A stretch of DNA of 64,000 bases from Stigmatella ashevillena (GTDB lineage Bacteria > Myxococcota > Myxococcia > Myxococcales > Myxococcaceae): positions 1,364,001 to 1,428,000 of the forward strand of contig NZ_JAQNDM010000002.1 in the NCBI RefSeq assembly GCF_028368975.1, read 5' to 3'. Each line of letters opens with the position of its first letter. The first letter of the stretch is position 1. The translations under genes were made by a program, and so were the position numbers. The notes below the pieces were generated by a model. It saw only the letters and a list, made by a program, of their open reading frames with translations. It had not been told where the DNA came from and did not search any database. This document shows positions 20,401-62,547 of this stretch, piece after piece.

Positions 20401-23400
20401 AGTCGCTGGCGAAGCATGCACTGCCAGAGCTTCAGGCCGAGGGCCCCTCTCTGCCAGTGGAGGTTCGCTATCAAGGCGGGCAGCGACAGGCGCGCCAGGT
20501 CATCCATGTTCCACCCGCGGAGGCCTTGGCCATCACGGAGCCTGCCTTCCGAGAGAATGGCATCTACCTGGTGACCGGCGGCGCGGGTGTCCTGGGCTAC
20601 GAAGTGGCCAAGCATCTGGCCAAGCGGTACCGTGCCCGGCTGATATTGACGGGGCGCTCTCCCCTGGATGATGAGACGCGCCGGAAGCTGTCCCAACTGG
20701 AAGAGATGGGGGCAGATGCCGTCTATCTCCGTGCGGACGTGGCCTCGCGCAAAGACATGGATCACTGCTTGGCGTATGCCAAAGCCCGCTTCTCCGGGCT
20801 CCACGGCATCATCCATTGCGCGGGTCTGCTGAAGGAAGGAACGCTCGCCAGCAAGAGCCTTTCAGATTTCGAGGCTACCCTCTCCGCCAAGATTCAGGGC
20901 ACGTTGACGCTTGACCATGTGACCCGGGCAGAGCCCCTCGATGTCTTCGTCGTCTTCTCCTCTGTGTCCACGTTGATTGGTACGGCGTTGGCGTCCGATT
21001 ACGCCACTGCCAACCGGTTCTTGGACAGCTTCGCCAGCCAGCGAGCGTCTCTGCAACAGCGTGGCCTGCGCCACGGGCAGACACTCTCTATCGGCTATCC
21101 CTACTGGCGTGAGGGTGGCATGCGGATGTCCACGGAGAAGGAGGCCATGGTCACCCAGGCGACAGGCATGGAGCCTCTTTCCATCTCGCATGGCCTTCAA
21201 GCCCTGGAGACCGCTGTCGGGCTTGGCCGACGCCAAGGCCTATCTCATGTCGTGACTGGATTTGGAAAGCTGGAGAAGATGCAGAGGGCCTTCCAGAGCG
21301 CCCCCCCCCAGGCTGCCTCCGGATCGTCTCATGTCCCCACGGCGGTGCCACCCAAGCCTCAATCCAGCCCAATCCACCGAGAGAAGCTCGAGGGGAGGCT
21401 CACAGCCGATCTCGCGAATATCGTGGTGAAGATCCTCCGGCTGAAATCTTCCGTGGACGCAAGGGCTGATCTGTCTGGGTATGGGTTCGAGTCGATCACC
21501 ATTGTTGAGTTCATTCAGGAGCTCAACACCCGGTATGGGACAAAGCTTTCACCCGCTCTCTTCTACGAACACCGAACCCTCGAGAGCTATGCACGCTTGC
21601 TTCTCGAGGAGCACGCTTCCAACGTTCTTCGGGCCTATCCAGATGCCGCTCCTCCAGCGGAGAGCATCCTCTCCCCTCCCTCCGTCTCTCCTTCAGAGAC
21701 TCTCCCTCGCGCTCCCCTGCCTGCCGTCCCCGTGAAGAGTGCGGCACTGCCTCTGGCCGAAGACATCGCCGTCATCGGAATGGCCGGCGTGTTCCCAGGC
21801 TCTCCAGACCTTGAGACGTTCTGGCGCAACATCGTGTCTGGCAAGGATCTCGTTGGCGAGATTCCGCGGGAACGGTTCAATTGGGAATCCTTTCATGGAG
21901 AAGCCGTTCCCGAGGACCGGCGCATCACGAGTTCACAGGGCGGGTTTATCGCGGATGTCGACCGTTTCGATCCCCTCTTCTTTGGGCTCTCACCTCTCGA
22001 AGCAGAGGTGATGGACCCACAGCAGCGTCTCTTTCTAGAAACGGTTTGGCGAACCCTCGAGGACGCGGGCTATAAGCCAGAGGCACTCTCTCAGCAAAAG
22101 ACAGGCGTTTTCGTCGGCGTCTCCAACGTCGACTACCGGGACGTGCTCGCGGCAGCAGGGCGGTTGTCCGAGGTGTACATCACCACAGGGCTGTCCACGT
22201 CGCTGGTGGCCAACCGCATCTCCTATTTGTTCGATTGGCGAGGTCCCAGCGAGCCTGTGGACACAGGGTGCTCCAGCTCGCTGGTGGCGCTGCACCGCGC
22301 CGTGGCCGCGCTCCATTCCAGAGACTGCACCGCAGCCATCGTGGGCGGCGTCAACCTGCTCCTCAGCCCCACGCCCTTCATCGCCTGCAGCCGGGCGGGC
22401 ATGCTGTCTCCGGACGGCCGGTGCATGACCTTTGACAAGCGCGCCAATGGTTATGTGCGCGGCGAGGGAGCAGGGGCTGTACTGCTCAAGCCCCTTTCCC
22501 AGGCCATCGCCGATGGAGATCGCATCCATGCCCTCATCCGGGGAACCGGCGTCAACCATGGTGGCCATGCGCAGGGGCTGACCGTCCCCAATCCTCGGGC
22601 CCAATCGGAGGTGCTCATCTCCGTGTATGAAAAAGCAGGCGTGGATCCCGCCACGCTCGGCTACATCGAGACGCACGGAACAGGAACCTCCCTGGGAGAC
22701 CCTGTCGAGATCAGTGGCTTGCGAAAGCTCTTCTCTCACTTCCACGGCAACCCGCCGCCAACGAGAGCCCGCTGTGGACTCGGGACGGTCAAAACCAATA
22801 TTGGCCATCTGGAGTCCGCTGCCGGCATTGCCGGGATCATCAAGGTGATCCTCTCCTTGAAGCACCGCACCCTCCCAGCCAGCCTGCACTGTCAGGAGCT
22901 GAACCCGTTCATGTCCCTCGCGGACAGCCCCCTGTACGTCGTGAAAGAGACGCAGCCCTGGGAGCCTCTCCTCGACCAACAGAGTCAGGTCCTGCCCCGC
23001 CGTGCGGGGGTGAGCTCTTTCGGATTCGGCGGGGTGAACGCGCACGTCCTGCTTGAAGAGTACGCAGGGCCACCCGTGGCCCAGTCCTTCCCTCCGGCCA
23101 GCAAGGACGGGAGGGAGCTGATCGTTCTTTCCGCGAAGGCCCTGGACCGCTTGACCGAATCCGCCAAACGGCTGGCCTCCTTCCTCCAACGCGATGAAGC
23201 ACGCGCTCTTGCGCTGCCTGACATTGCCCACACATTGCAAGTTGGCCGACGCGAAATGGAACACCGGTTGGCCATCGCCACGGGCTCCGTGGAAGAGCTG
23301 AGCCAACGCCTGGAAGACTTCGTCGCAGGCCGGAAGCATGCCGACATCGTCACCGGCCGTGCTTCAACGGAAGGGCACACCCTCCGGATGCTTGGGGAGA

Positions 23401-32100: not shown

Positions 32101-35100
32101 AGCGCATGAAGCGTCCGGTCCGCATCTTCAACTGGGGTTTCTGGGGTGAAGTCGGTGTCGTCGCCACGGATGACTACCGGGAGCGGATGGCACGGCGTGG
32201 CGTTGGGGCGCTCTCCCGCGAGGAGGGCCTCCACATCTTCGAGCGCGTCATGGCAGGCCGCGCCACTCAGATCTTCCCCCTCAAGCTCCAGCCGGAGCTT
32301 CTCGAGTTCTTCAAGATGGATCCTACCCACCCTCGCGCCCCCTTGCCCGAGACGTTCCCTTCCGTGCTCTCCCAGGTGAATGCGCGGCTGGAGGGCTTCA
32401 TCGGCCAGGGCCCTGACATTCCCGGCAATGAAGCACTGCTTCCCATCGAGCAGCACGGACGGCTGTTGCTCCTCCGCGCGTTCCAGGAAATGGGCGTGAT
32501 GCGTACGCCGGGCGAGCGCTATCCCCAGGAAGCGCTGCGGGAGCGGCTGCAGATCCAGCCCAGCTACGCGCGGCTGTACGAGGCCATGCTGGACATCCTC
32601 TCCAAGGCGGGCTTCGTCAAGCTCTCGGGGGGCTTCATCGAGGTGATGCCCGCAGTGAGCACTTCCAGCGCCCAGACCAGCCCCGAGCACCTCCGGGCAC
32701 ATCAGGACTCAGTGCTCGCGCGCCTGCCGGATGGCCGGGCCTTCATAACGCTTCTGGAGGCTTGCGTCACCTCGCTTCCCCAGGTTCTCACTGGCCGGAA
32801 GACCCACTTGGAAGTGATGTTCCCGGGCGGCTCCAAGGCGCTTGTCGAGAACATCTACAAGGGCAACCGCCGGTCGGACTATTTCAATGAGCTGGTCTGC
32901 CAGGGGGTGCTGTCCGTCCTGGAGAAGCGCCTCGCGGATTCTCCTGGGCAGAAGATCGCCCTCCTGGAGATTGGCTCGGGCACAGGCGGTACCAGCGGCC
33001 GCGTCTTCGAGGCCATCCAAGCGCATGGGCCGCGCCTGTCCTATGACTATACGGATATCTCGAAGGGATTCGTGACGCATGGCCAGCGGACCTTCGGGAG
33101 CCGATATCCCTTTGCCTCATTCAAGGTCCTGGATGTCGAAAAGGACGTCACCGCTCAAGGATTCCAGCCAGGCACCTACGACATCATCCTGGCCACCAAC
33201 GTCCTGCATGCCACCCGGGACATCCGCAACACGCTTCATCACGCGAAGCTGCTGCTCAAGACCAACGGCGTCATCCTCATCAACGAGGTGACCCAGGTCC
33301 AGGACTTCACCACCCTGACCTTTGGCCTCACGAGTGGGTGGTGGCTGTACGAGGACGCTCCCGTGCGGCTGCCCCACTCTCCCCTGCTCGGACTGCGTGA
33401 GTGGCGCTCCGTGCTGGAGGATCTCGGCTTCCGCCGGGTGACGGGCTTTGGATTGCCCCGCGGCCGTCCCGCGTGGGATGGACAGAACGTCATTCTCGCG
33501 GAGAGTGACGGTTGGATCGATGCGGCGCTTCGCCCAGCCCCCTCCAAGCCCTCAACACCCTCCATGGAACAGCAACGGCCCACTCCGGAAGCGCCTCGCT
33601 TCAATACCGAAGACCTGCGCGAGCGCACCCTCCTTTTCCTCAGGAACACCCTCGCGGACGTCCTGAAGATGGACCCCTCGGAATTCGAGCCCGGCGCCAC
33701 TTTTGAGACCTACGGCGTGGACTCTCTCGTGGGCATGGACTTCCTCGACAAGCTGGGGGGGGACTTTCCCAGCCTGCCAAAAACCCTCCTCTTCGAGCAC
33801 ATCACGCTCGCGCAGCTCACGACCCACTTCCTGCAGAAGTTCCCCGAGGTGTTGCGAAGCAAGCTCGGCGGAGCCCCCAAGGAAGAGCGCCAGGTCCGGA
33901 CCGAGGGCGCACGAACTTCGCCTCCCTCTGCCTCCGCGCCCCGGGACACCGCGCCCAGGAACACGGCGCCCATCGTGGACGCGGCCTCCCTGTTTGGAGG
34001 AGCCCCCCAAGAGTCCGCTCCCCCTCCAGCCGCCTTGAGGGAAGAGCCTCCAGCACGGCGGGAGGACGGTATCGCCATCATCGGCGTCAGCGGCCGTTAC
34101 CCCATGGCAGAGGATCTGCGGGCCTTCTGGACGAACTTGCGAGAGGGCCGCTCCGCATTCACGGAGGTGCCTCCGGACCGGTGGAGCCAGGACGCTTACC
34201 ACGATGCCTCGGGCGAGCGTCCCGGCACGACCTACCACCGCTGGGGAGCATTCCTCTCGGATGTGGACAAGTTCGATCCGCTCTTCTTTGGCATCTCCCC
34301 CCGCGAAGCCCAGCTCATGGACCCGCAGGAGCGGCTGTTCCTGCAGACGGCCTGGGCCACGATGGAAGACGCGTGTTGGACCAGCGAGCAGCTCAACCGC
34401 TATGCGCACTCCTCGGGAGGACAGGGCGTCGGTGTATTCGTGGGAGTGATGTACGGCCCCTACCAGCTCCTGGCCGCGGAAGAGTGGGCCCGGGGTAACC
34501 GGGTGGACGCACAGTCCGCGTACTGGTCGATCGCCAACCGCGTGTCCTACAGCCTGGACTTCCGCGGACCGAGCATGGCCATAGACACCGCGTGCTCGTC
34601 TTCGCTCACCGCCATCCACCTGGCCTGCGAGAGCATCCGGCGCGGCGAGTGCCGGGCTGCGCTGGCGGGGGGGGTCAACCTCATCCTTCATCCCAGCCAC
34701 CATGTCGGGCTGGGAAAGATGTCCATGCTCTCGCGCAATGGAACCTGCCGTGCCTTTGGTGAAGGCGCGGATGGCTTCGTGCCCGGAGAGGGGGTGGGCT
34801 GCATCCTGCTCAAGCCGTTGGCCGACGCCATTCGCGACGGAGACCACATCTACGGCGTCATCCGCGGCTCCGCCGTGAACACCAACGGCAAAACGAGCGG
34901 CTACACCGTCCCCAGCCCCAACGCACAAGCCGATCTGATTGAGAGCGCGCTGAAGCGGTCCGGGGTGGATCCGCGCACGCTCTCATACGTCGAGGCGCAG
35001 GCCGTGGGCTCGGCATTGGCAGATCCCATCGAAGTCGTGGGCCTCACCAAGGCCTTCGAGCGCTTCACGGGAGAGCAGGGTTTCTGCGCCATCGGCTCCG

Positions 35101-38100
35101 TCAAGCCGAATGTGGGCCACCTCGAGGCGGCTTCAGGCATGGCGCAGCTCACCAAGCTGTTGCTGCAACTTCAGTACGGCCAGCTCGCGCCTTCTCTGGG
35201 CGCCGATCGCCTCAATCCCTACATCGACTTCGACCATTCGCCCTTCCGTGTGCAGAGACAAGGAGGCGCGTGGCCAGAGCCCCGGGATTCCGTCACCGGG
35301 CAGCGTCAGCCCCGGCGAGCGGCCGTCAGCTCCTTCGGCGCGGGCGGGGCCAACGCCCACCTCATCATCGAAGAGCACGTCTCGCTGGCAGAGCGCACCG
35401 CAGCGCGGGAGGAGAAACTTCCTCAGCTCGTGGTTTTGTCCGCGAGAAAGCCCGAGCGGCTGGCCGAACAGGTCCAGCGGTTGCACAGCTTTCTCTCGGA
35501 CACGCTGTCCGCCTCGAGGGTGGATTTTACCCTCGCGGATGTGGCGTATTCGCTCCAGACAGGCCGAGAGGCCATGAACGTAAGGTTGGCGGTGATTGCG
35601 AGCGATCTCCGCTCGCTCTTGGAGTCGCTCTCACACTTCCTCTCGGGGCGCACGGCCTCTCCCCGCGTGTTGACCGGCACGGTCAAGAAGAGCGCCCGCC
35701 CGGCCCCCCTGTCCGCAGAGACCGTACGGCAGGCCCGTGTCTCGGGCAGGCTGGAATCCATCGCCTCCGCCTGGGTCGAAGGTGCGGAGGTGGATTGGAC
35801 GTTGCTTCACCCGGACTCTCGTCAGCAGCGCCTCTCGCTGCCCTCCTACCCGTTCGCGAAGGAGCGGTACTGGCTGGAGAGCACCGCGCCCATCGCGACC
35901 CAATCTGCCGAAGCACCCACGACCGAGGTTCCTCTCCAGGAACCTCTCCCCATTTCTCCAACGAAGGAAGCCACGGTGCACGCCAGACACGAAGACCCGC
36001 GCGCAGCGGACGATCGAGCCCTGCTCAAGAAGGTGCAGGATTGCTTGATCCAAGGCATCTCCGAGATTCTCAACGTCCGCGCTGCGGATGTGGATCTCGA
36101 TGAGCACCTGAGTGGCTACGGGTTTGACTCTATCTCACTCACGAAGTTCACGGCGTACGTCAACCGCCAGCTTGGCCTCGACATCAGCCCAGCGATCTTC
36201 TTCGAACACTCGACCGTGAACAGCTTCGCGGACTATCTGGTCAACGAGCGCCGCGAGGCACTCGTGGGGGCCCTGCTCAACACGGCCCAGTCCCTCTCCC
36301 CCCCCCCCGCCAGGCCGTCCGCGGAGACTCAGCACCGGAGCGCCCAGACGTCCCCGGCAGCAGAACTCCCCCCCAGCGAAACTCGAATCGCGGAGGTGCG
36401 TCCTCCTACGAGCGAGGCCAACCGCACGGCGGAGCCGATTGCCGTCATTGGCATGGCGGGCCGCTTCCCAGGCTCACCGGACCTGGGCCGCTACTGGGAG
36501 AACCTGCTCGCTGGCAAGGATCTCATCACCGAGATTCCCTCGGACCGCTTCGACTGGAAGGACATCTACGGCGATCCCCAGAAGGACCCTTCGAAGACTC
36601 CCTCCAAATGGGGCGGCTTCCTGCAGGATGTGGATCGCTTCGATGCCCTCTTCTTCAGCATCTCGCCGCGCGAGGCGAGAACGATGGACCCGCAGCAGCG
36701 TCTCTTCCTGGAGACGGTGTGGCAGACCCTCGAAGACGCCGGCTACTCTCCTTCCCAACTCGCGGGGACGTCCACGGGCCTGTTCGTGGGCGTCGCCGGC
36801 AGCGAGTACTCACACCTGCTGGCCCAGAGTGGCGTGGAGATCGACGGCCAGGCCGCCACGGGTAATGCGCACAGCATCCTCGCCAACCGCATCTCGTTCT
36901 TGATGGATCTCCACGGCCCGAGCGAGCCCGTGGACACCGCCTGCTCCAGCTCACTGGTGGCGGTGCATCGGGCCGTTCAGTCCATCCAGGCCGGTGAGTG
37001 CGACATGGCCATCGCCGGCGGTGTCAACGTGCTCCTGACGCCGGTGGGCTTCCTGGCCTTCGGCAAGTCCGGCATGCTGGCCAGCGATGGCCGGTGCAAG
37101 ACCTTCGATCAGCGCGCGGACGGCTACGTGCGAGGCGAGGGAGTTGGGGCCGTCCTTCTCAAGCCGCTGAGCCGGGCCGTGGCGGATGGGGATACCGTCT
37201 ACGGCATCATCAAGGGCACTGCCGTCAACCATGGAGGCCGGGCCAACTCGCTGACCGCGCCCAATCCCAACGCGCAGGCGGACCTCATCGTGCGTGCCAT
37301 GCGCCGGGCAGGCGTGGCACCCGAGACGATGGGATACATTGAGGCGCACGGAACCGGAACAGCGCTGGGCGATCCCATCGAGGTGAACGGGCTCAAGCGT
37401 GCCTTCCGGGAACTGGGCCTGAGCGGCGCGGATTGGAACCGGAAGTCCTGTGGATTGGGCACCGTCAAGACCAACATCGGCCACCTGGAGACAGCCGCGG
37501 GGATAGCGGGTCTCATCAAGCTGCTCTTGTCCTTGCGGAGCAAGCAGCTGCCTCCTCTCGTGCACTTCCAGAAGCTCAACGAGTACATCCAACTCGAGGA
37601 CAGTCCCTTCTACATCGTGGAGCGTGCCCAGGATTGGCAGCCCGCTAGAGACGCGCGGGGCACCGCTCTCCCCCGCCGGGCGGGCATCAGTTCCTTCGGC
37701 TTCGGTGGCGTCAACGTGCACGTGGTGTTGGAAGAGCACGTCTCGTCTCCCTCTTCCGAGGAGCCTGAATCGAGCGGCGAGGCCATCGTCCTGTCCGCAC
37801 GAAGTCCAGAGCAATTGAAGGTCTACGCAGAGGACCTCGTGGCCTTCCTGGAGAGAGACGCGGCTTCTCAAGCCCCTGCTCCCACGCGGATGGCGGACAT
37901 GGCGTACACGCTCCAGGTGGGCCGCGAAGCCATGTCCCACCGCCTGGCGCTGATCGTCCGGAATCGCCGGGAACTGGCCGAGAAGCTCCAGGCATTCGTT
38001 CGAGGCGAGGCGCCTGGCACGGATGTCTTCACCGGTGAAGACCGGGCGCACAAGGACGTCGTCTCGCTCTTCAGCGCAGACGGAGAAGACCAGGGCTACT

Positions 38101-40634
38101 TCCAGGAGCAGGCCCGGCGAGGGAACTTCCGCAAACTGGCGGCGCTCTGGGCCAAGGGCTTCCCCATCGATTGGGCATCCCTCATGCCGCGCGCGTCACG
38201 AAAGCGGGTGTCCTTGCCCACCAGTCCTTTCGCGCGGGAGCGCCACTGGCTGCCTCCTCCTGCCGTCAAGGCCTCGGCTCCGGCTCCTCGACAGGAAGCC
38301 GCCCCCACCCCGCCACCCCCTGTTGCCGCACGTCCCGCGCCGACACTGACCGTTGTCTCCGTGCCGACGCCAAGCACGCCGCCACCGAGCGAAGCGCGGC
38401 CCATCGCCGAGCCCATCCAGCCCGGCCAGGAGCGCGCGCCAGGACCCCGTGAGCGCATCCGAAACATCTTCGCGGAGTACATCGGTGTCGAGGCAGGCGC
38501 CGTCGATCCGGTACGGGAATTCACGTCCTATGGCATCGACTCGATTGCTGGCCTTCGGATCATGCAGCGCATCCAGCAACTCTACGGCGAGGAAGTACCG
38601 ATGCTCGCCATCATCGAGCACCCGACGCTCAACCGCTTCACGGATCACCTCCTTCAGAACTATGTGAAGGACGAGGCGCCCGCAGCAGTACAGGCGGCAC
38701 CTCCCCTGGCGAAGCCGCACGCCATCTCTCCGAGCGCCGAGCCTCCTCGCCCGGCGGCTTCTCCGCAGCGGGAAACCGCAAGCCCCCAGCCGCCTGTCCG
38801 GTCTGCGAGCGCGCCAGAGGTCCGGCTCGTGCCCTTCCAACCCCAGGGCGCGGAGACTCCCCTCATTGCCCTGCCAGGGAGTTGGGGAGATGTGGGCTGG
38901 CTCATCGAGTTCCTCCCCCATCTGGGCACGGCCCAACCCGTCCTCGGTCTGGAACTCGACCGCACGCCCACCCAAGGCGGCATCGAGTGCAGCGTGGAGG
39001 TTCTCGCCAAGGCGTGCGTGAAGGCGCTTCTGGCAGCCCGCCCATCCGGACCCTACCGGCTCGCCGCGTCCGGACTGGGAAGCAGCACGGCCCTGGAAGT
39101 TGCGCGGCAGTTGCAGGAGCTCGGCCACGAAGTGTCCGAGTTGCTCCTCATCGCCGCGTCAGGGCCGGGCCCTGTCCGTGAGGACGCGCTCATGCGGCAG
39201 GTGGGAGACTCCGCCTATGTGTTGACGTGCTTGGGCAACGCGCTGGGCCAGATGTGGAAGGCCTCGGACGCACTTCGGTACGACACACTGCCCGCAGGCG
39301 ACCTCTCCGCGCAGCGCCAGGGCCTCGTGCGGTTCCTCACCACGAAGACCGAGTGCCCCATTCCCAGCTCCAAGTTGGAGCCGTGGCTGGATGGTGCCAG
39401 CCGACAGTACGCGTTCGGGCTGATGGCCCTGGGCCGTTACCAGCCCCGTCCCCTCAGCCGTCCCCTGCAAGCGCTGTGGATCTCACCGAAGGCCTTGGAA
39501 ACGGGGCCCACCTCGGCCTACCGCCTGCCCTCATCCCCTGTGGAGGGGACTGGGACCGCCTCGGACTGGCAGACACTTCTCGGGGTGGCCCCCCGTGCGT
39601 TCGAGGCGCCCTACGATCGGTTCGAACTCTTGTCCGGCAAGGGCCTCGCCTGGGTGAAGGAGAAGGTGCTCACGCCGCAGCCGGCCGCGGTGAGGCCAGC
39701 GGCCTCCCCTCCTCCGCGGTCCATCATCGTGCCCATCAACAAGAACGGTGCACAGCGGCCTTCGTTCTGGGTGCACACCCTTCTGGGGGACGTCAGCTAC
39801 GGCCTGAACCTGTCCCACCACATGGGCATTGATTCCCCCCTCTTCGGCATCGAGCAGTTCGACATGGACGGCAACATCTTCCTGTTGCCCACCATTGAGG
39901 AGATGGCCTCCCGCTACATCGACTCCCTGAGAACCGCCCAGCCCGAAGGACCCTATGTGCTGGGGGGATACTCCTTCGGAGGAATCGTCGCGTTCGAGAT
40001 GGCCTACCAGCTCAATCAGCGGGGAGAGGAAGTCTCGAATCTGGTATTGATCGACTCGCTCATGCCAGGCACCGAGGTGTTCAGCTCCATCGACACCTCT
40101 GCCATCCAGACTGACGACTTCAGCATCATGGCGCTCATCCTCATCGGGAACTCTTTCGGCAATCGCTGGCATGCGGACCGGCACATCCTGATCGATGACA
40201 TCGCAGGCCACGACCGGGCCAAGCAGCTCGAGAGGGTGGCTCGACACCTCAAAGATCACTCGAAGACGGAGTTTTCCTTCGAGGAACTCCTGGAACTCGT
40301 TCGCGGCAATTACCAGACCATCACGTCGAACAACGATGCGCTCAACCGGTACCGGCCCAAGGGGCCCTTGGGTCCTCAGGTGAATGCCATGCTCTTTCAC
40401 GCCACCCTGGGCTTCGTGGGGCCCAACAATCCCAACAACATCCCCGAAGTGAAGATCCGGGTCTCGGACCGGACCAATGGCTTCGGCCGCTACATCTCCA
40501 ATGGCATCCGGATCATCGATCTTCCCGCTGACCACTACACCATCTGCACTGAGGAGTTCATCAAGGTGGTGGCTGAAAAGACCCGGGTCGCAACTGTTCC
40601 CATGCACGTCATCCCTACCGAGCGAGCATCGTAA
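26136..40634 (+). CDS. trans-AT PKS protein D: docking-KR-ACP, KS9-DH-KR-MT-ACP, KS10(0)-ACP, KS11-ACP-TE-TE
   Basis: Largest and terminal assembly-line protein (4832 aa). Residues 1-~32 form a docking half (ILHQVESGELDIETGVELL). Domains: KR ~26950-27700, ACP ~27770-28030 (Ser584), KS9 ~28145-29470 (Cys849), DH ~29985-30830, KR ~31600-32290 (GGAGGLG), C-methyltransferase ~32700-33500 (SAM motif LLEIGSGTGG), ACP ~33600-33860 (GVDSL), KS10 ~34060-35380 (Cys2820), ACP ~36010-36270 (GFDSI), KS11 ~36430-37750 (Cys3603), ACP ~38440-38670 (GIDSI), TE1 ~38810-39660 and TE2 ~39720-40610. The DH reads HHVQGTPVLA, with the motif proline replaced by Ala. KS10 has QAVGS in place of HGTGT and should be non-elongating. 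TE1 has lost its nucleophile and histidine; TE2 keeps GYSFGG and should release the chain by hydrolysis or macrolactonisation. The KS11 module has no KR, so a 3-oxo thioester would reach the TE unless it is processed in trans. Confidence 0.96.
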   Translation: MNLDKRQILHQVESGELDIETGVELLSRLMSSGTPASRPEPAAPGPAHEHVYFEACWTAAAAPTERLAPGQRVLVTGEGAASFEALRLALAGHQSVFVTRAAAFRQVASGHYELDPASPGDCAKLMAQLAQEGFSPTHVLHLWQGGASDPIDEPGLRSQLESSVLPVFALVKALLGQVPKHDVFLLSAALGRGGAAACSAVAGFLSVAAQENPRLRGKALHLPTASSAAERTASELLVTELSSGTSADLEVRYSAGQRQLRKLTEFSRPSNTGSKPLRKGGVYLITGGAGGLGLLFARHLVDECGARLVLTGRSPHPSAHQQAALRELEARGGQALYCQANVTSLTDMERVVRTAKEHFGRLSGVIHAAGLIEDAFIIRKEIDSFRRVLAPKAYGALALDQATREEPLDFFVLFSSTATLLGRAGQGDYAAANLFMDEFAATRNALTLQGQRSGHSVSIAWPLWQGGGMTITEEDREALTRLAGMDVLSTEAGLAAFSDALRSNRSHVAVLYGDAPRIRPFVERRTAQRASASSGPSQARGHVEREVLLRGAQEYLLDLLSRETRLPRERIDVSQGLDSIGLDSMLINRLNLVLEDGFGALSKTLFFEYQSIQELAAYFADNHASELATVLRIAPTAASAPSPSGSLLSKTESSSTAAPSTQTQEASAPARDGDIAIIGVSGRYPDAENLPEFWENLSSGRNSVGHVPAERWDLSRYPGLELTARERQGLQWGSFLREVDAFDPLFFNIAPRDAELMDPQERLFLETAWASLEDAGYSRQELHRTCREGDETRVGVFAGVTFGQYQGIGVEEWGKGNYISPGSSYWSIANRLSYVLNLHGPSMPVDTACSSSLTAVHMACESLRRGDCKMAIAGGVNLNIHPAKHVALARLKFLSTEGKCRAFGEGGDGYVPGEGVGAVVLKPLAQARADGDHIYAVIKGSTINHGGKTNGYTVPNPNAQASLISRALQDAHVDARTISYVEAHGTGTSLGDPIELTGLNKAFRAHTRDKQFCALGSVKTNIGHLESAAGIASLTKVLLQFQHQQLAPSLHAETLNRNIDFNSSPFFVQRELGPWKVPSTAASPRRASISSFGAGGANAHLIIEEYVAPRIDEVTSAGTELVLLSAKNPERLRVYAARLKQHLQSQLTSSSAPLSLKDIAFTQQVGREALEERLALVVESVDELVARLADFEEGRAGGALVFTGRVPEDRASKALDVSRTVEFIQRKDWTSLARLWIEGHSVPWGEAFRDQHRHRVPLPSYPFERKRFWVPLSDRSTGMVHTAPSLAPMLDRVVPSLRGAVFEKTFRADERLLRDHHVQGTPVLAGVAQLEMVREAAEAAGGGSEVSVHDVVWLSPVKISPEAGLVRLTLEPREEGASFEMTLPGAAVTCSRGQLRFQDPASVKLPPQVDLQALRARCQRRIGKETLYAGFRSVGIEYGPSFQCVEDLWVQGREALGELRLAPEFLQDSERYALPPPLVDAALHTLQGLLSADAGDGGAQTLIPFSVAELMVYGRLPARCFSYAQLSESNPASGVARFNVAILDESGRCLVVIKDFTARRLRPVQETPPAPTSTPTPTSELGILYQPRWKPQPLASSGRAPRPEGRTVLIFTHANDCGLGDALAELHGTHRTVRVGLGDMWSDEGPNRRGIDQRNPQHYGRVLAEIGDLSAVYFLGGMQSKRYSSHDLRQLDRMEERGVFSLLRLTRLLAERPPSGLQLKVVTNDVHHVRDGDTAHNPFAAALVGFTKVLSREFSQLRVTCIDVASAELSEGGSSAEAVLHALAEEPGETAGLQWALREGRRFVQTLEAVELPEPLAPTLPLIERGVYLILGGAGGLGLTVSEHLARKYRARLILVGRSPLREDIQQRIQAIEALGAEVLYLQADLSDLDSMRGVVREARHRFGAISGVIHSAIVLRDGIIGRMTEEQLRSALAPKTRGMVILNHVLEAEPVDFLAFFSSAISFTGAAGQANYAAASTFEDSFALYLDQRMKRPVRIFNWGFWGEVGVVATDDYRERMARRGVGALSREEGLHIFERVMAGRATQIFPLKLQPELLEFFKMDPTHPRAPLPETFPSVLSQVNARLEGFIGQGPDIPGNEALLPIEQHGRLLLLRAFQEMGVMRTPGERYPQEALRERLQIQPSYARLYEAMLDILSKAGFVKLSGGFIEVMPAVSTSSAQTSPEHLRAHQDSVLARLPDGRAFITLLEACVTSLPQVLTGRKTHLEVMFPGGSKALVENIYKGNRRSDYFNELVCQGVLSVLEKRLADSPGQKIALLEIGSGTGGTSGRVFEAIQAHGPRLSYDYTDISKGFVTHGQRTFGSRYPFASFKVLDVEKDVTAQGFQPGTYDIILATNVLHATRDIRNTLHHAKLLLKTNGVILINEVTQVQDFTTLTFGLTSGWWLYEDAPVRLPHSPLLGLREWRSVLEDLGFRRVTGFGLPRGRPAWDGQNVILAESDGWIDAALRPAPSKPSTPSMEQQRPTPEAPRFNTEDLRERTLLFLRNTLADVLKMDPSEFEPGATFETYGVDSLVGMDFLDKLGGDFPSLPKTLLFEHITLAQLTTHFLQKFPEVLRSKLGGAPKEERQVRTEGARTSPPSASAPRDTAPRNTAPIVDAASLFGGAPQESAPPPAALREEPPARREDGIAIIGVSGRYPMAEDLRAFWTNLREGRSAFTEVPPDRWSQDAYHDASGERPGTTYHRWGAFLSDVDKFDPLFFGISPREAQLMDPQERLFLQTAWATMEDACWTSEQLNRYAHSSGGQGVGVFVGVMYGPYQLLAAEEWARGNRVDAQSAYWSIANRVSYSLDFRGPSMAIDTACSSSLTAIHLACESIRRGECRAALAGGVNLILHPSHHVGLGKMSMLSRNGTCRAFGEGADGFVPGEGVGCILLKPLADAIRDGDHIYGVIRGSAVNTNGKTSGYTVPSPNAQADLIESALKRSGVDPRTLSYVEAQAVGSALADPIEVVGLTKAFERFTGEQGFCAIGSVKPNVGHLEAASGMAQLTKLLLQLQYGQLAPSLGADRLNPYIDFDHSPFRVQRQGGAWPEPRDSVTGQRQPRRAAVSSFGAGGANAHLIIEEHVSLAERTAAREEKLPQLVVLSARKPERLAEQVQRLHSFLSDTLSASRVDFTLADVAYSLQTGREAMNVRLAVIASDLRSLLESLSHFLSGRTASPRVLTGTVKKSARPAPLSAETVRQARVSGRLESIASAWVEGAEVDWTLLHPDSRQQRLSLPSYPFAKERYWLESTAPIATQSAEAPTTEVPLQEPLPISPTKEATVHARHEDPRAADDRALLKKVQDCLIQGISEILNVRAADVDLDEHLSGYGFDSISLTKFTAYVNRQLGLDISPAIFFEHSTVNSFADYLVNERREALVGALLNTAQSLSPPPARPSAETQHRSAQTSPAAELPPSETRIAEVRPPTSEANRTAEPIAVIGMAGRFPGSPDLGRYWENLLAGKDLITEIPSDRFDWKDIYGDPQKDPSKTPSKWGGFLQDVDRFDALFFSISPREARTMDPQQRLFLETVWQTLEDAGYSPSQLAGTSTGLFVGVAGSEYSHLLAQSGVEIDGQAATGNAHSILANRISFLMDLHGPSEPVDTACSSSLVAVHRAVQSIQAGECDMAIAGGVNVLLTPVGFLAFGKSGMLASDGRCKTFDQRADGYVRGEGVGAVLLKPLSRAVADGDTVYGIIKGTAVNHGGRANSLTAPNPNAQADLIVRAMRRAGVAPETMGYIEAHGTGTALGDPIEVNGLKRAFRELGLSGADWNRKSCGLGTVKTNIGHLETAAGIAGLIKLLLSLRSKQLPPLVHFQKLNEYIQLEDSPFYIVERAQDWQPARDARGTALPRRAGISSFGFGGVNVHVVLEEHVSSPSSEEPESSGEAIVLSARSPEQLKVYAEDLVAFLERDAASQAPAPTRMADMAYTLQVGREAMSHRLALIVRNRRELAEKLQAFVRGEAPGTDVFTGEDRAHKDVVSLFSADGEDQGYFQEQARRGNFRKLAALWAKGFPIDWASLMPRASRKRVSLPTSPFARERHWLPPPAVKASAPAPRQEAAPTPPPPVAARPAPTLTVVSVPTPSTPPPSEARPIAEPIQPGQERAPGPRERIRNIFAEYIGVEAGAVDPVREFTSYGIDSIAGLRIMQRIQQLYGEEVPMLAIIEHPTLNRFTDHLLQNYVKDEAPAAVQAAPPLAKPHAISPSAEPPRPAASPQRETASPQPPVRSASAPEVRLVPFQPQGAETPLIALPGSWGDVGWLIEFLPHLGTAQPVLGLELDRTPTQGGIECSVEVLAKACVKALLAARPSGPYRLAASGLGSSTALEVARQLQELGHEVSELLLIAASGPGPVREDALMRQVGDSAYVLTCLGNALGQMWKASDALRYDTLPAGDLSAQRQGLVRFLTTKTECPIPSSKLEPWLDGASRQYAFGLMALGRYQPRPLSRPLQALWISPKALETGPTSAYRLPSSPVEGTGTASDWQTLLGVAPRAFEAPYDRFELLSGKGLAWVKEKVLTPQPAAVRPAASPPPRSIIVPINKNGAQRPSFWVHTLLGDVSYGLNLSHHMGIDSPLFGIEQFDMDGNIFLLPTIEEMASRYIDSLRTAQPEGPYVLGGYSFGGIVAFEMAYQLNQRGEEVSNLVLIDSLMPGTEVFSSIDTSAIQTDDFSIMALILIGNSFGNRWHADRHILIDDIAGHDRAKQLERVARHLKDHSKTEFSFEELLELVRGNYQTITSNNDALNRYRPKGPLGPQVNAMLFHATLGFVGPNNPNNIPEVKIRVSDRTNGFGRYISNGIRIIDLPADHYTICTEEFIKVVAEKTRVATVPMHVIPTERAS
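34060..35380 (+). other. Domain KS10: predicted non-elongating ketosynthase (KS0)
   Basis: Cys2820 and the second histidine (NVGH) are intact, but the HGTGT motif is QAVGS, with Gln2955 (codon at 34998) replacing the catalytic histidine. This matches the common His-loss signature of non-elongating KSs in trans-AT PKSs. Its partner ACP lies at ~36010-36270 with no processing domain between, giving a KS0-ACP unit that would relay the alpha-methylated intermediate from the KS9 module. Confidence 0.88.
38810..39660 (+). other. Domain TE1: degenerate thioesterase (pseudo-TE)
   Basis: An alpha/beta-hydrolase-like domain between the last ACP and TE2. Aligned by eye with TE2, the nucleophile elbow reads ASGLGSS, placing Gly4313 (codon at 39072) where TE2 has Ser4613. 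The catalytic-histidine position reads YDRFELL, with Arg4495 (codon at 39618). Both changes predict loss of catalysis; a structural or substrate-gating role is possible. Confidence 0.8.
39720..40610 (+). other. Domain TE2: chain-releasing thioesterase
   Basis: C-terminal thioesterase of the assembly line. It keeps the nucleophile elbow GYSFGG (Ser4613, codon at 39972) and a plausible catalytic histidine in LPADHYT (His4800, codon at 40533). The fold order is normal for type I PKS/NRPS thioesterases. Release by hydrolysis or macrocyclisation cannot be told apart from sequence. Confidence 0.9.
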
Positions 40635-40678: not shown

Positions 40679-41758
40679 ATGGATTTCAGTGTCTACTTCT
40701 TCTCGGCGAATGATCAGGCTGACTTTGGCGCCAGGTACCGGTTCATCCTGGAGGTAGCCAAGTATGTCGACCGCAACAACTTCAAGGCCATCTGGACGCC
40801 CGAGCGCCACTTCCAGGAGTTCGGCGGGAGCTTTCCCAATCCGGCCGTGCTCAGCGCGGCGCTGGCCGTCACGACTCAGAACATCCAGCTGCGGGCAGGC
40901 AGCGTCGTGGTGCCACACCACCACCCGGCACGCATCGCCGAGGAATGGGCTCTCGTAGACCAGCTCTCCCAAGGGCGCGTAGGCCTCTGCCTCGCCACGG
41001 GTTGGCACCGCGGAGACTTCATCTTCTATCCGGAGAACTACACCAACCGCCGTGACTGGACCTTCGGCCACATCGAGACGCTGAGAAACCTCTGGGCGGG
41101 CCGTCCCGTGACTTTTCCGGGCGTCGAGGGCCAGCCCGTGGAAGTGCGCTCCTTCCCTCGCCCCCACCGCAAGGACTTGCCGCTGTGGCTCGTCCACAGC
41201 TCCAACCCGGAGACGTGGATCAAGGCCGGAGAGTTGGGGCTCAACATCCTGACCCTGCTCGACAACTGGGATCGGCTCACCTCCAACATCGCCGCCTACC
41301 GTGCGTCACTCGAGAAGCACGGCTTTGACCCGAAGGCCGGCATCGTGACCATGGGGGTTCACACCTTCATCGGGAACGATGACGCCAAGGTGCGCCAGAC
41401 CGTCGCCCAGCCCATCAAACAGTACCTGAGCACCTTCCTCACCCAGCGCAAGGCGGACGCCAACCTGCAAGGCGCGTCCAAGCAGATCGAAGAGAAGGAA
41501 AAGGAGATGCTGGCCGGACTTGCCTTCGAGGACATGTACGAGAAGCGCTCCCTGCTCGGCACCCTTCCCAAGTGTGCGAACATGGTCAAGAAGATGCAGG
41601 AAGTGGGCGTCAACGAAGTCGCCTGCATCGTGGACTTCGGCCTGGACTTCCAGACCGTGCTCGACGCCCTACCTCAGGTCAACGAGCTGAGGGCCATGTT
41701 CGAACCCCAGGTCCCCGCAGCGGCCACAGCAGGCATGGCCTGGTACTACAACCGCTGA
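40679..41758 (+). CDS. Free-standing luciferase-like flavin monooxygenase (LLM)
   Basis: A 359-aa bacterial luciferase-like monooxygenase of the natural-product type that is often found as a domain inside PKSs and NRPSs. Recognisable family stretches are MDFSVYFFSANDQ at the N-terminus, WTPERHFQEFGG near residue 40, LRAGSVVVPHHHPARIAEEW and LATGWHRGDF. The family uses reduced flavin and oxygen, usually to hydroxylate enzyme-bound intermediates. Here it should act in trans on an ACP-bound chain or on the released product. The gene starts 44 nt after PKS D on the same strand, with GGAG ahead of the ATG, so it is probably co-transcribed with the PKS genes. The exact carbon oxidised cannot be inferred. 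Confidence 0.9.
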   Translation: MDFSVYFFSANDQADFGARYRFILEVAKYVDRNNFKAIWTPERHFQEFGGSFPNPAVLSAALAVTTQNIQLRAGSVVVPHHHPARIAEEWALVDQLSQGRVGLCLATGWHRGDFIFYPENYTNRRDWTFGHIETLRNLWAGRPVTFPGVEGQPVEVRSFPRPHRKDLPLWLVHSSNPETWIKAGELGLNILTLLDNWDRLTSNIAAYRASLEKHGFDPKAGIVTMGVHTFIGNDDAKVRQTVAQPIKQYLSTFLTQRKADANLQGASKQIEEKEKEMLAGLAFEDMYEKRSLLGTLPKCANMVKKMQEVGVNEVACIVDFGLDFQTVLDALPQVNELRAMFEPQVPAAATAGMAWYYNR

Positions 41759-41828
41759 GACATACGCCGTTCACTCACCCCCTGTTTTGATCCATTCCCT
41801 CTTGCTGTCCCCCCAAGGAGCATGCCTC

Positions 41829-43164: not shown

Positions 43165-43190
43165 CCGGGAAGCAGTCCCTTGCTTCCCGG
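43165..43190 (+). terminator. Perfect 10-bp hairpin after the unknown gene, before AT-ER
   Basis: The arms CCGGGAAGCA (43165-43174) and TGCTTCCCGG (43181-43190) are exact inverted repeats around a 6-nt loop, 23 nt after the preceding stop codon. Pyrimidine-rich sequence follows but there is no true U-run, so it may be a partial terminator or an mRNA-stabilising element that sets AT-ER expression apart from the genes ahead. Confidence 0.65.
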
Positions 43191-43227
43191 CTCCTTCCTT
43201 TCCCATGCCCCGTCGCAGGAGGAGTTC

Positions 43228-45513
43228 TTGAGCCGAATCTTCGTCTTCCCTGGGCAAGGATCCCAACGGACTGGCATGGGCGCTGACCTCTTCCAGGCCT
43301 TTCCGGGACTGGTGGATCAGGCCAGCAACCTGCTGGGCTACTCTGTTCGCCAGCTCTGCCTGGAGAACCCGGATGGACGGCTGGACCTCACGGAGTACAC
43401 CCAGCCAGCCCTGTTCGTGGTCAATGCGCTCAGCTACCTGCTACGCACGGAGCGGACCCGGGAGACACCCGACTTCGTGGCAGGACACAGTCTGGGCGAG
43501 TACAACGCCCTGTTCGCCGCGGGCGTGGTGAGCTTCGAGACAGGCTTGAAGCTCGTTCAGCGCCGGGGCGAGCTGATGGCCCGTGCCTCCGGGGGAGGAA
43601 TGTGTGCCGTGGTCGGCCTGCCCCTGGAGCGGCTGCACGAGCTTCTGGCGCAAGCTCCGGAAGTGGACATCGCCAACTTCAACGCCCCGCTTCAGACGGT
43701 TCTGGCGGGCTCCCTGGAGGCATTGGCAGCGCTCCGCCAGCCCCTGCTCGACGCGGGGGCCCGCGCGGTGGTCTCTCTCAAGGTGAGCGCCCCTTTTCAC
43801 TCTCGGTATATGCACGCGGCTCAGCGTGAGTTCGCGGCCTTCGTCGAGGGGTTTCGCTTCTCCGCGCCGCGCATGCCCGTCATCGCCAACGTCGATGCCC
43901 GGCCCTACACACTCGCCAACGTCCGGGACAACCTCTCCCGGCAGATCGCATCTCCCGTCCGCTGGACAGAGACGGTGCAATGGCTGATGCAGGCAGCGCA
44001 TCAACCCACTTTCGAAGAGCTGGGCGTTGGAGACGTGCTGACAGGCCTCATCCGGAAAATCCAAGCCGCCCCCCCCACGCCCCATGAACCTCCCCAGAAG
44101 ACACGCATTTCAGCGAAACATGACGAAGAGAGCAGGTCTCCCGTGGTGAGTAGCAACGGCCGGTTCACCGCTCAGTCCCTGGGATGCGCCGAGTTCCGGC
44201 GCGACCACGGCACCCGCTATGCCTATGTGGCGGGGGCCATGTACAAGGGGATTGCCTCCGAAGCGTTCGTCATCCGCATGGGCAAGGCAGGCCTCCTCAG
44301 CTACCTGGGCACGGGCGGGCTGAAGATGGACCGGATCGAAGAGGGCATCCGGAAGATCCAGGCAGCCCTCCCTCCAGGCGCCCCCTACGGGCTGAACCTG
44401 CTGTCGGATCTGGAGCGGCCCGAGCGGGAGGAGGCCGTGGTCGACATGTACCTCCGCTATGGCGTCACCCGGGTGGAGGCCGCAGCCTACATGCAGGTCA
44501 CCCCCAGCCTGGTGCGCTACCGGTGCCAGGGCCTGCGCCGCGCTCCGGACGGCTCCACCCTGGCCACGAACAAGGTGCTGGCCAAGGTGTCCCGCCCCGA
44601 GGTGGCAGAGGCCTTCCTCAGCCCGCCCCCGGAACGCATCCTCAAGAAGCTCCTCGAGACGGGGAAGATCTCACCGGAACAAGCAGCTTTGTCCCGTGAC
44701 TTTCCCATGTGTGACGACCTGTGCGCGGAGGCAGACTCCGGTGGGCACACGGACCAGGCGGTGGCCTCCATCCTGCTGCCCGCGATGTTGATGCTGCGCG
44801 ACGAGGTGTCGCGCAAGCATGGTTACCGGAAGAAGATCCGCGTGGGGGCCGCAGGCGGCATCGGTACACCCCATGCCGTCGCGTCGGCCTTCATCCTGGG
44901 CTCGGACTTCGTGCTCACGGGCAGCATCAATCAATGCACCGTGGAGGCAGGCCTCAGCGATACGGCCAAGGACATGCTCCAGCAAGCGGACATCCAGGAC
45001 ACGGAGATGGCGCCCGCCGGAGACATGTTCGAGCTGGGCGCCAAAGTCCAGGTGTTCAGCAAGGGCCTCTTCTTCCCTGCCCGTGCCAACAAGCTCTACG
45101 AGCTGTACCGCCGCTACAACTCCTTGGAGGAGATCGACGAGAAGACGCGGGAGCAGATCCAGACGCGCTACTTCAAGCGGAGCTTCGACGAGGTCTGGCG
45201 GGAGACCCGGGAATACTACCAGCGGGCGCACCCGCAGAGCCTGGAGAAAGCGGAGAAGAGCCCCAAGCACCGCATGGCGCTCATGTTCAAGTGGTACTTC
45301 GTCCACTCCACCCGGCTGGCCATTCGCGGCTCGGAGGATCAGCGCGTGGACTATCAAATCCAGTGTGGACCCGCGATCGGCGCCTTCAACCGGTACGTGA
45401 AGGGCACCGCGCTGGAGTCCTGGCGCAACCGTCATGTGGACGGTATCGCCGAGTTGATGATGACGCGCACCGCGGAGTACCTGCAGCAGCGGTTCGCGGC
45501 ATTGCAAGGTTAG
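43228..45513 (+). CDS. trans-acting malonyl-CoA acyltransferase / FMN enoylreductase didomain (AT-ER)
   Basis: A 761-aa fusion of a FabD-like acyltransferase and a PfaD-like enoylreductase, the usual trans-acting pair of trans-AT PKSs. The AT (residues 1-~290) opens with FVFPGQGSQ and has GHSLGEY (Ser88) and APFHSRY (His191). It should charge the AT-less ACPs of proteins A-D with malonyl units. The ER (~310-761) is a TIM-barrel flavoprotein type, with GLNLLSDL, VGAAGGIGTPHAVASAF and a long conserved tail (HRMALMFKWYF). It should reduce enoyl-ACP double bonds in trans, since no module has its own ER. The TTG start at 43228 is chosen because AGGAGG stands at 43217-43222. The longer frame from 43180 has no such site. 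The 3' end lies 7 nt from the convergent thioesterase gene. Confidence 0.95.
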   Translation: MSRIFVFPGQGSQRTGMGADLFQAFPGLVDQASNLLGYSVRQLCLENPDGRLDLTEYTQPALFVVNALSYLLRTERTRETPDFVAGHSLGEYNALFAAGVVSFETGLKLVQRRGELMARASGGGMCAVVGLPLERLHELLAQAPEVDIANFNAPLQTVLAGSLEALAALRQPLLDAGARAVVSLKVSAPFHSRYMHAAQREFAAFVEGFRFSAPRMPVIANVDARPYTLANVRDNLSRQIASPVRWTETVQWLMQAAHQPTFEELGVGDVLTGLIRKIQAAPPTPHEPPQKTRISAKHDEESRSPVVSSNGRFTAQSLGCAEFRRDHGTRYAYVAGAMYKGIASEAFVIRMGKAGLLSYLGTGGLKMDRIEEGIRKIQAALPPGAPYGLNLLSDLERPEREEAVVDMYLRYGVTRVEAAAYMQVTPSLVRYRCQGLRRAPDGSTLATNKVLAKVSRPEVAEAFLSPPPERILKKLLETGKISPEQAALSRDFPMCDDLCAEADSGGHTDQAVASILLPAMLMLRDEVSRKHGYRKKIRVGAAGGIGTPHAVASAFILGSDFVLTGSINQCTVEAGLSDTAKDMLQQADIQDTEMAPAGDMFELGAKVQVFSKGLFFPARANKLYELYRRYNSLEEIDEKTREQIQTRYFKRSFDEVWRETREYYQRAHPQSLEKAEKSPKHRMALMFKWYFVHSTRLAIRGSEDQRVDYQIQCGPAIGAFNRYVKGTALESWRNRHVDGIAELMMTRTAEYLQQRFAALQG

Positions 45514-45520
45514 CCCCTGC

Positions 45521-46300
45521 TCAAGGCACCAGGAGCTGGACGAGGTGTTGTGACAGGCTGCTGAGAAGCCCCTCCCGGGAGCCGCCCTTGTCGTTGAGGT
45601 AGAAGTGGCCTCCCGGGAACATCTGCCGAGAGAACCCGGCGGAGGTATGTGCCTTCCAGGCGTCCAGCTCCTCCGGGAGGGCCCGAGAATCATCATGCCC
45701 ACCGAAAGTGGCAATGGGACAGTCGAGCGGCGGCTCGGCAACGTATGCATAGGTCTCCAGCACCGCGAAGTCTCCCCGCAAGCAGGGCAAGTAGACCTTC
45801 AAGAGCTCAGGTACCTCCAAGATGGAGCGCTGAATGCCGTTGTACCGCTTGATCAGCTCATCGACGAAAGCGGGCTGCGGCAAGGCATGAATCGGAGTAT
45901 CCAAGTGCTGAATATGAGGTGCGTGGCGGCCTGAGATGAGCAACTCCAGCGGCTGACCTCCCCCTTGCCGACGCAGTTCCCGGGCCACCTCGAAGGCCAC
46001 CAGTCCGCCCATGCTGTGCCCGAAGAACGCAAACGGACAGTCCAGCTCGGACTTGAGGACGGGAACCAAGGCCTCGACAATCGCGGTCATCGAGGTGAGG
46101 GGCGGCTCCTTGATGCGTGTCTCCCGTCCCGGCAACCGGACGAGGACCACCTCTACCCCCGGAGGCATGGCATTCGCCCATCCGTGATACACGGTCGTTC
46201 CCGCGCCCGCATAGGAGAAGCAGAACAGACGGACCATGGCCGTCGCATCGGGCCGGGGATGCACCAACCAGCGGCTGGCCGCACTGCTCGCATCACTCAT
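45521..46300 (-). CDS. Type II (editing) thioesterase
   Basis: A 259-aa discrete alpha/beta-hydrolase thioesterase of the GrsT/RifR type. These enzymes clear ACPs and KSs of stalled or wrong acyl groups in PKS and NRPS systems. Visible catalytic motifs are FGHSMGG (Ser96), a GGHDD stretch for the acid, and PGGHFYL for the histidine. An early LFCFSYAGAG and the RLPGRETR stretch are typical of the family. The start at 46300 is favoured because AGGAGG (46311-46316 on +) lies 10 nt ahead; longer in-frame starts fall too close to or beyond that site. It is the last gene of the minus-strand ABC operon and converges on AT-ER. A hairpin with a short U-run stands just ahead of its ribosome site, so expression probably depends on read-through or attenuation. 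Confidence 0.93.
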   Translation of the reverse strand: MSDASSAASRWLVHPRPDATAMVRLFCFSYAGAGTTVYHGWANAMPPGVEVVLVRLPGRETRIKEPPLTSMTAIVEALVPVLKSELDCPFAFFGHSMGGLVAFEVARELRRQGGGQPLELLISGRHAPHIQHLDTPIHALPQPAFVDELIKRYNGIQRSILEVPELLKVYLPCLRGDFAVLETYAYVAEPPLDCPIATFGGHDDSRALPEELDAWKAHTSAGFSRQMFPGGHFYLNDKGGSREGLLSSLSQHLVQLLVP

Positions 46301-46325
46301 CTCTCTCATTCCTCCTAAAAGCAGA

Positions 46326-46355
46326 GGGCCCGCAGGCCACATGGCCGACGGGCCC
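46326..46355 (-). terminator. Two-tier hairpin with U-run between lipoprotein-sorting gene and type II TE
   Basis: The outer arms GGGCCCG (46326-46332) and CGGGCCC (46349-46355) pair exactly. The inner arms GGCC (46335-46338) and GGCC (46343-46346) close a 4-nt loop, with one 2-nt internal mismatch. Read on the minus strand, the stem is followed by TCTGCTTTTA and then the AGGAGG of the thioesterase gene. That layout suggests an intrinsic terminator or attenuator inside the operon. Confidence 0.7.
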
Positions 46356-46375
46356 CCCGGGCACGGCTTGAAACC

Positions 46376-47239: not shown

Positions 47240-47288
47240 GATGTCGTCCTCACGGAAAATCGCCTTGCCGACCCAAGCCTTGGTTGTC

Positions 47289-48512: not shown

Positions 48513-48558
48513 AGGAAGCTCCTGTCTGGCAGGACGAAGACACGTCAGCCGCGGGCGG

Positions 48559-50537: not shown

Positions 50538-50559
50538 GTGTTCGCCTTGTACCTGAACG

Positions 50560-62542: not shown

Positions 62543-62547
62543 TGCTG

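Follow-up and report, generated by a model that had tools for sequence, protein, structure and literature searches.

Organisation of the terminal polyketide synthase

The window analysed here is the whole of a 64,000-nucleotide stretch of the Stigmatella ashevillena genome (RefSeq assembly GCF_028368975.1, contig NZ_JAQNDM010000002.1, positions 1,364,001 to 1,428,000), and includes genes for four polyketide synthase (PKS) proteins, MA to MD (Table 1). The terminal protein, MD, ends in two adjacent thioesterase (TE) domains, TE1 and TE2. By alignment, TE1 has none of the three residues of the catalytic triad and TE2 has all of them, and the same combination of a dead first copy and an intact second copy is encoded on a plasmid of Streptomyces anulatus.

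Pfam and profiles built from the domains of the protein itself gave the order psiKR-KR-ACP / KS-DH-KR-cMT-ACP / KS0-ACP / KS-ACP-TE1-TE2 for MD (KS, ketosynthase; KR, ketoreductase; DH, dehydratase; ACP, acyl carrier protein). Two separate PF00975 stretches were counted in MD by Pfam, and in a scan of the own genome TE1 scored 35.9 bits and TE2 83.5 bits, both above the cut-off of 26.4. No acyltransferase (AT) is among the Pfam families listed for MD, and a separate gene in the window encodes an AT fused to a PfaD-type enoyl reductase (ER). MD is hence a trans-AT PKS, as originally predicted. The KS that follows the DH-KR-cMT module has EAQAVG in place of EAHGTG (EAQATG in the S. anulatus counterpart) and is presumed from this motif to be a non-elongating KS0, and the last KS (KS3) keeps EAHGTG. 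No KR was found in the last module by the own-domain profiles; thus, a β-keto chain is expected on the last ACP (ACP4), which is followed directly by TE1, unless a KR acts in trans.

Catalytic residues of TE1 and TE2

The triad of TE2 consists of Ser4613 in a GYSFG elbow, Asp4640 in an LIDS motif and His4800 in an ADHY motif, and all three residues are kept in the alignment of the TE2 domains of S. ashevillena and S. anulatus. The corresponding positions of TE1 are occupied by Gly4313, Ala4340 and Arg4495, and Ala4340 lies 27 residues after Gly4313, which is also the spacing of Ser4613 and Asp4640 in TE2. The original prediction placed Gly4313 at the nucleophile and Arg4495 at the histidine position, with correct residue numbers, and described TE1 as doubly dead and TE2 as intact. 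Both named losses are real and TE2 does have its complete triad, but the count for TE1 was too low, as the third loss, Ala4340 at the acid position, was missed. As judged by sequence, TE1 is triply dead, having no Ser, Asp or His at the triad positions; by its match to the PF00975 profile it belongs to the thioesterase fold, but it is not a working TE.

Two other explanations of these losses were dropped. TE1 contains only two histidines, His4262 and His4331, and the pair alignment of the two known TE1 domains has no conserved His column, so that a working triad made up of a different Ser and His is unlikely; no alternative Ser/His pair is conserved. A frame or assembly error is likewise unlikely, because the reading frame runs open through TE1 and TE2 and an independent genome has the same losses. 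TE1 and TE2 share only 24–25% sequence identity.

The Streptomyces anulatus counterpart and the age of TE1

The S. anulatus protein (SC; 4639 residues) aligns to residues 181–4827 of MD in one BLASTP high-scoring segment pair with 40% identity, and the main domain order found by profiles is common to both. Identity is 66.5% for the last KS, 54.1% for the last ACP, 38.0% for TE2, 34.4% for the DH and 30.7%, over 251 of 284 positions, for TE1. The tail of SC is likewise TE1-TE2. Its TE1 has a GHGLC elbow, with Gly replacing Ser; LIDS is replaced by LLGT, and the third site has no His. The exact position of this site is ambiguous by a few residues (DRAPWD), and that part of the domain contains no His.

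The likeness extends beyond the terminal protein. A gene for a luciferase-like monooxygenase (LLM) of the MupA/Atu3671 family (TIGR04020) lies directly downstream of the pair in both organisms, in keeping with the original remark that an LLM is encoded next door. The two LLMs are 57% identical, and any other LLM listed in the phylum or in the 14 loci compared is at most 47% identical. The starter proteins MA and SA (S. anulatus) align over residues 24–1914/1–1826 at 42% and 2360–4621/1953–4101 at 43% identity, and both include FkbH. The middle of the assembly line differs between the two clusters. On this sequence comparison, the S. anulatus protein is the true counterpart (ortholog) of MD.

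A tree of TE domains was built from 59 TE matches in the fetched loci, of which 44 were left after removal of seed copies, matches below 70 bits and rows shorter than 240 residues; addition of five seeds gave 49 rows. The two TE1 domains grouped together (support 99/94), as did the two TE2 domains (100/98), and both groups joined the TE of a Methylosinus plasmid (93/84), in a tree for which the program warned of long-branch attraction and the bootstrap had not settled. Because of the long TE1 branches and the weakness of the tree when either TE1 is left out (see below), orthology of the TE1 domains rests mainly on their position in proteins aligned over nearly the full length and only secondly on the tree.

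Since the S. anulatus ortholog has the same losses, TE1 is an old pseudo-domain that has been retained, and no recent, private duplicate in decay. This bears out the proposal of a conserved pseudo-TE ahead of a working TE; neither outcome originally named as refuting it, a normal triad built from another Ser and His or a recent decaying duplicate, was seen. Retention of an equally broken domain in so distant a pathway suggests a function other than catalysis. The simplest history, reconstructed from these sequences, would be that one duplication was followed by loss of activity in the first copy, and that the pair then spread before the two cluster lineages separated.

Distribution of the TE1-TE2 pair

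The pair was sought in 195 genomes of the phylum, the best six candidates being scored per genome. The S. ashevillena pair scored 1381.2 bits and matches listed elsewhere no more than 115.5 bits; with a model built from the two known pairs, the values were 1192.1 and at most 118.9 bits, again among the matches listed. The presence of the same pair in related myxobacterial clusters, proposed as a check, was not found: the six congeners lack it, and no full-length match was obtained among the candidates scored in the other 194 genomes. The 109 PF00975 matches across seven genomes of the genus, read by eye, revealed no other frame with two separate copies. In a search with TE1 alone in 59 relatives, the only score above 55.3 bits was that of TE2 in the same protein (73.8 bits).

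The complete MaoC-SDR-FkbH starter region matched over its whole length only in S. ashevillena (best three candidates scored per genome), and the FkbH part alone was present in 17 other genomes of the phylum. Going by these searches, it is likely that the pair is missing elsewhere in the phylum because the cluster itself is missing there. As the relatives also lack the full starter of the cluster, their lack of TE1 is uninformative on decay. One congener has a 2916-aa frame (G006:C13:318588-325931; L088) with an FkbH region that is 43% identical and with one TE match, i.e. the genus includes an FkbH-starter synthase with a single TE.

A search of 72,556 plasmid records by tblastn gave 321 records with a match to the pair. 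Three of them cover at least 80% of it, but only the S. anulatus record (NZ_CP109126.1) does so in a single piece; the other two represent the Methylosinus OB3b plasmid and have one intact TE behind two ACPs. This Methylosinus PKS (L079, 10164–21071) ends ACP-ACP-TE, followed by an apparent further carrier domain, as judged by eye. Among the partial matches, Nostoc H4 has one TE in the last 800 residues and Nostoc H5 has one TE match; the 316 further records were judged from the listing alone. In the stretches fetched, Ensifer canadensis shares the starter, yet has one mid-protein TE, and two Streptomyces plasmids with a split FkbH starter have no tandem TE. A scan of genome contigs, limited to close relatives and possibly excluding the own genome, yielded a single locus, a 286-aa frame of an uncultured Bacteroidetes with a 65-residue match, and no match to the pair was found in the viral contigs scanned.

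Predicted fold of TE1

The structure of TE1 was predicted with a four-sequence alignment as input (TE1, TE2, the free-standing type II TE of the window and the L039 frame). This shallow alignment contained the intact TE2, which may push the model towards a thioesterase fold. The model has a pTM of 0.75 and a mean pLDDT of 69, being weakest at stretches within residues 124–159 and at 229–247, and keeps the core together with helices in the lid region, the lid being at low confidence. Its best match in the PDB was the GbnD6 TE of the gladiolin synthase (9f7b), with a Foldseek E-value of 5.9e-14 and a TM-score of 0.78; comparison with the same TE by VIA gave Z 24.4 and rmsd 3.1 over 275 aligned residues. 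The oocydin branching TE (7r0x) was within the top three matches on both lists (Z 20.8). Both of these structural neighbours are described as thioesterases, whereas TE1 lacks the triad. Structure prediction had been proposed as a check of this region, and TE1 alone does model as a whole thioesterase; it is predicted to retain the complete fold.

Likely product

By analogy with known pathways, the product is rather probably of the boron-macrodiolide type (tartrolon/boromycin/hyaboron class). This assignment draws on three features: FkbH loading, the sequence of the final modules, and the LLM. The loading region of MA is MaoC-SDR-FkbH-ACP (Pfam and NCBIfam), which points to a C3 starter derived from glycerate by reduction towards lactate. 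FkbH loading is known to give a C3 starter from glycerate, and boron macrodiolides, one of which is boromycin from Streptomyces, are built on a C3 starter. FkbH starters are not confined to this pathway and occur elsewhere. Boron macrodiolides further have a C2 hydroxyl and a masked ketone at C3, which is the outcome expected of an LLM acting on an unreduced last module.

The end of the assembly line comprises a minimal KS-ACP, a KR module, a DH-KR-cMT module and a minimal KS0-ACP, followed by KS-ACP-TE-TE. In tartrolon biosynthesis, KS10 and KS13 are from a minimal KS-ACP architecture and naturally process reduced intermediates, and KS11 is from a KR-ACP-KS unit (PMC11260071). Compared by this published description only, and if KS13 is the last KS, the module order counting back from the last KS would agree at these three positions. 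The passages available from PMC7930024 and PMC7274485 hold nothing on the tartrolon TE region. Members of the class are produced by myxobacteria (tartrolon, hyaboron) and Streptomyces (aplasmomycin) (PMC13028090, PMC13029266). Rhizopodin was dropped as a candidate product, because the families listed for the PKS proteins include no nonribosomal peptide synthetase (NRPS) domain. The match of the two methyltransferase domains of S. anulatus to the methyl pattern of aplasmomycin is a lead only.

Proposed role of TE1

KS0 domains are the known case of dead domains retained in trans-AT PKSs. The reading we tentatively prefer, at slightly less than an even chance, is that TE1 is old and still folded but catalytically dead, a TE0 in the sense that KS0 is a dead KS, and has been retained at the release end of a trans-AT PKS, the probable product being a boron-binding macrodiolide. 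TE2 is probably the sole release catalyst, and TE1 probably has a non-catalytic part as a gate or platform placed between the last ACP, LLM and TE2. This role, drawn by analogy, is favoured because the last ACP should carry a β-keto chain and is then followed by a dead TE instead of a dead KS.

Conglobatin and elaiophylin are each released by a single TE that is reported to couple two monomers before cyclising the dimer (PMC4504003). These TEs are the likely analogue of TE2, which alone would join two monomers and then close the ring by the same iterative route. TE1, located between ACP4 and TE2, would act as a non-catalytic platform that delays hand-over of the chain to TE2, and/or would position the chain while the LLM hydroxylates the α-carbon of the β-ketoacyl-ACP4. 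Its role would parallel that of the KS0 that follows the hydroxylated ACP in MupA-type bimodules. MupA is active only on a β-ketoacyl chain held on an ACP and interacts with the ACPs on either side of KS0, and its authors suggest that the bimodule may stabilise the labile hydroxylated chain (PMC10953402). The MupA bimodule of mupirocin (OocM in oocydin) likewise combines a trans LLM of the same NCBIfam family, going by the family name, with KS0-ACP, which is present here in MD. In that bimodule the hydroxylated ACP precedes KS0, whereas here, if the product is a macrodiolide, the hydroxylated ACP would be the last one, which precedes TE1. A more specific version, also by analogy, is that TE1 docks the LLM at the last ACP and shields the labile α-hydroxy-β-keto chain from TE2 until it is hydroxylated, so that only finished monomers are dimerised; we consider this version doubtful. 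Three roles were originally proposed for TE1: gating of the substrate, holding of a dimer for macrodiolide formation, and recruitment of a trans enzyme such as the LLM. As far as the sequences go, LLM recruitment would have circumstantial support in the joint conservation of TE1 and LLM in both known clusters with the pair, and the macrodiolide idea in the module order.

Several findings weigh against the platform or gate role. The pair is known from two clusters only, so that co-conservation of TE1 and LLM has n=2. The terminal branches of TE1 (1.98 and 2.31) are 2.5 to 3 times longer than those of TE2 (0.67 and 0.93), as under relaxed constraint, and when either TE1 was left out (21 loci) the place of the other in the tree was weak or unsure. 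A single-sequence model of the TE1-TE2 tandem had a pLDDT of 40, at which the interface is not readable. One module further upstream is a KS0-ACP that directly follows a KR-bearing module, the arrangement where MupA works in mupirocin (PMC10953402); the LLM may therefore act there, and TE1 would then have no LLM-related role. Finally, the macrodiolide TEs of conglobatin and elaiophylin manage with one active site (PMC4504003).

Three other explanations of TE1 were weighed. TE1 could be a mere structural spacer or folding partner around which the synthase is built, without handling of substrate or LLM. The longer TE1 branches would fit this, as would the count of conserved polar positions in the pair alignment, 17 for TE1 and 47 for TE2; however, the 251 of 284 alignable positions are kept across two phyla, and a whole hydrolase fold, as modelled, is not needed for spacing. 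We regard this explanation as rather unlikely. That TE1 holds a dimer seems unlikely. In this scheme it would bind the linear dimer, or else the second monomer by its hydroxyl end, with no acyl-enzyme formed, and TE2 would then esterify and cyclise. Module order and starter do fit macrodiolides, and the TE1 model keeps the core and lid-region helices, the lid at low confidence, but one active site reportedly serves the TEs of conglobatin and elaiophylin for both dimerisation and cyclisation (PMC4504003), and the product here is only presumed to be a dimer. Lastly, a duplicate of TE2 on its way out would account for the loss of all catalytic residues, the longer branches and the occurrence of the full-length pair in one of 195 phylum genomes, yet is highly improbable given the same nucleophile Gly and the same acid and His losses in an S. 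anulatus protein aligning over residues 181–4827 of MD, the low identity of TE1 and TE2, which indicates an old split, and the uninformative absence from relatives that also lack the full starter.

Comparison with known tandem thioesterases

Returning to the preferred reading of TE1 as a retained dead thioesterase, a close formal parallel is in the NRPSs of arthrofactin, lysobactin and teixobactin, which likewise have two adjacent C-terminal TEs on a megasynthase. There the host is an NRPS and the first copy has a catalytic Ser, whereas here the host is a trans-AT PKS and the first copy has Gly4313. The earlier statement that both copies are usually active in lipopeptide NRPSs is too simple: in the tandem of lysobactin the N-terminal TE alone macrolactonizes, and in that of teixobactin both TEs are reported to be able to do so (PMC11735501). 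A system with three active TEs, two of them free and one part of the NRPS, has also been described (PMC13320435). In the open-licence literature, which leaves out most subscription journals, no report of a PKS with a dead first TE was found. We know of no described case of a tandem TE with a triad-less first copy on a PKS.

If TE1 is a TE0, the pair would add to the known kinds of tandem TE one in which the first copy is conserved but non-catalytic, with representatives in Myxococcota and Actinomycetota. Dead domains preserved by selection demonstrate the use of folds as scaffolds and gates in assembly lines, and a conserved dead TE before a live TE, together with a conserved oxygenase, makes a small, testable system for the timing of release versus the last tailoring step and for chain pairing. 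It is also a caution for genome-mining tools that a tandem TE need not imply two release reactions.

Other genes of the cluster and its surroundings

Table 1. Coordinates in the window of the genes, domains and residues discussed.
Feature	Position	Strand	Basis and remarks
MA, starter PKS (MaoC-SDR-FkbH-ACP loading region, then KS modules)	1..9811	+	FkbH TIGR01686, 316 bits
MB, PKS	9879..17426	+	Pfam and profiles
MC, PKS	17460..26090	+	Pfam and profiles
MD, terminal PKS, 4832 aa	26136..40634	+	Open reading frame, Pfam, own-domain profiles
KS0	34068..35354	+	Profiles and motif
KS3, last ketosynthase	36435..37715	+	Profiles and motif
ACP4, last ACP	38472..38654	+	Profile
TE1, pseudo-thioesterase, residues 4227–4510	38814..39665	+	Pfam and own-domain profiles
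Gly4313 (GGA), nucleophile position	39072..39074	+	Alignment
Ala4340 (GCC), acid position	39153..39155	+	Alignment
Arg4495 (CGG), histidine position	39618..39620	+	Alignment
TE2, intact thioesterase, residues 4527–4815	39714..40580	+	Pfam and own-domain profiles
LLM, MupA/Atu3671 family	40679..41758	+	TIGR04020, 419.6 bits (cut-off 244.45)
Trans-acting AT fused to PfaD-type ER	43180..45513	+	49% (AT) and 57% (ER) identity to S. anulatus
Type II thioesterase, free-standing	45521..46342	-	PF00975, 159 bits; 39% identity to S. anulatus alpha/beta hydrolase

MA extends beyond the window, starting about 4.07 kb upstream of it. In MB, the KS at residue 2186 (about position 16434) has HGSGN and NIGA in place of HGTGT and NIGH and is likely another non-elongating KS. 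Between the LLM and AT-ER genes, a 451-aa frame (41787–43142, forward strand) has no Pfam or NCBIfam match and no plasmid match, and is probably a gene of the operon.

On the reverse strand, the type II TE gene stands in a row (45521–50645) with genes for a LolA-like protein, two FtsX/MacB-type permeases and an ABC ATPase, a possible set for export or self-protection. A cytochrome P450 is encoded at 54112–55542 on the forward strand (184.5 bits), and a P450 is likewise present in the S. anulatus cluster. Positions 56939–64000 on the reverse strand encode another, different PKS with in-line AT; hence a cis-AT cluster adjoins.

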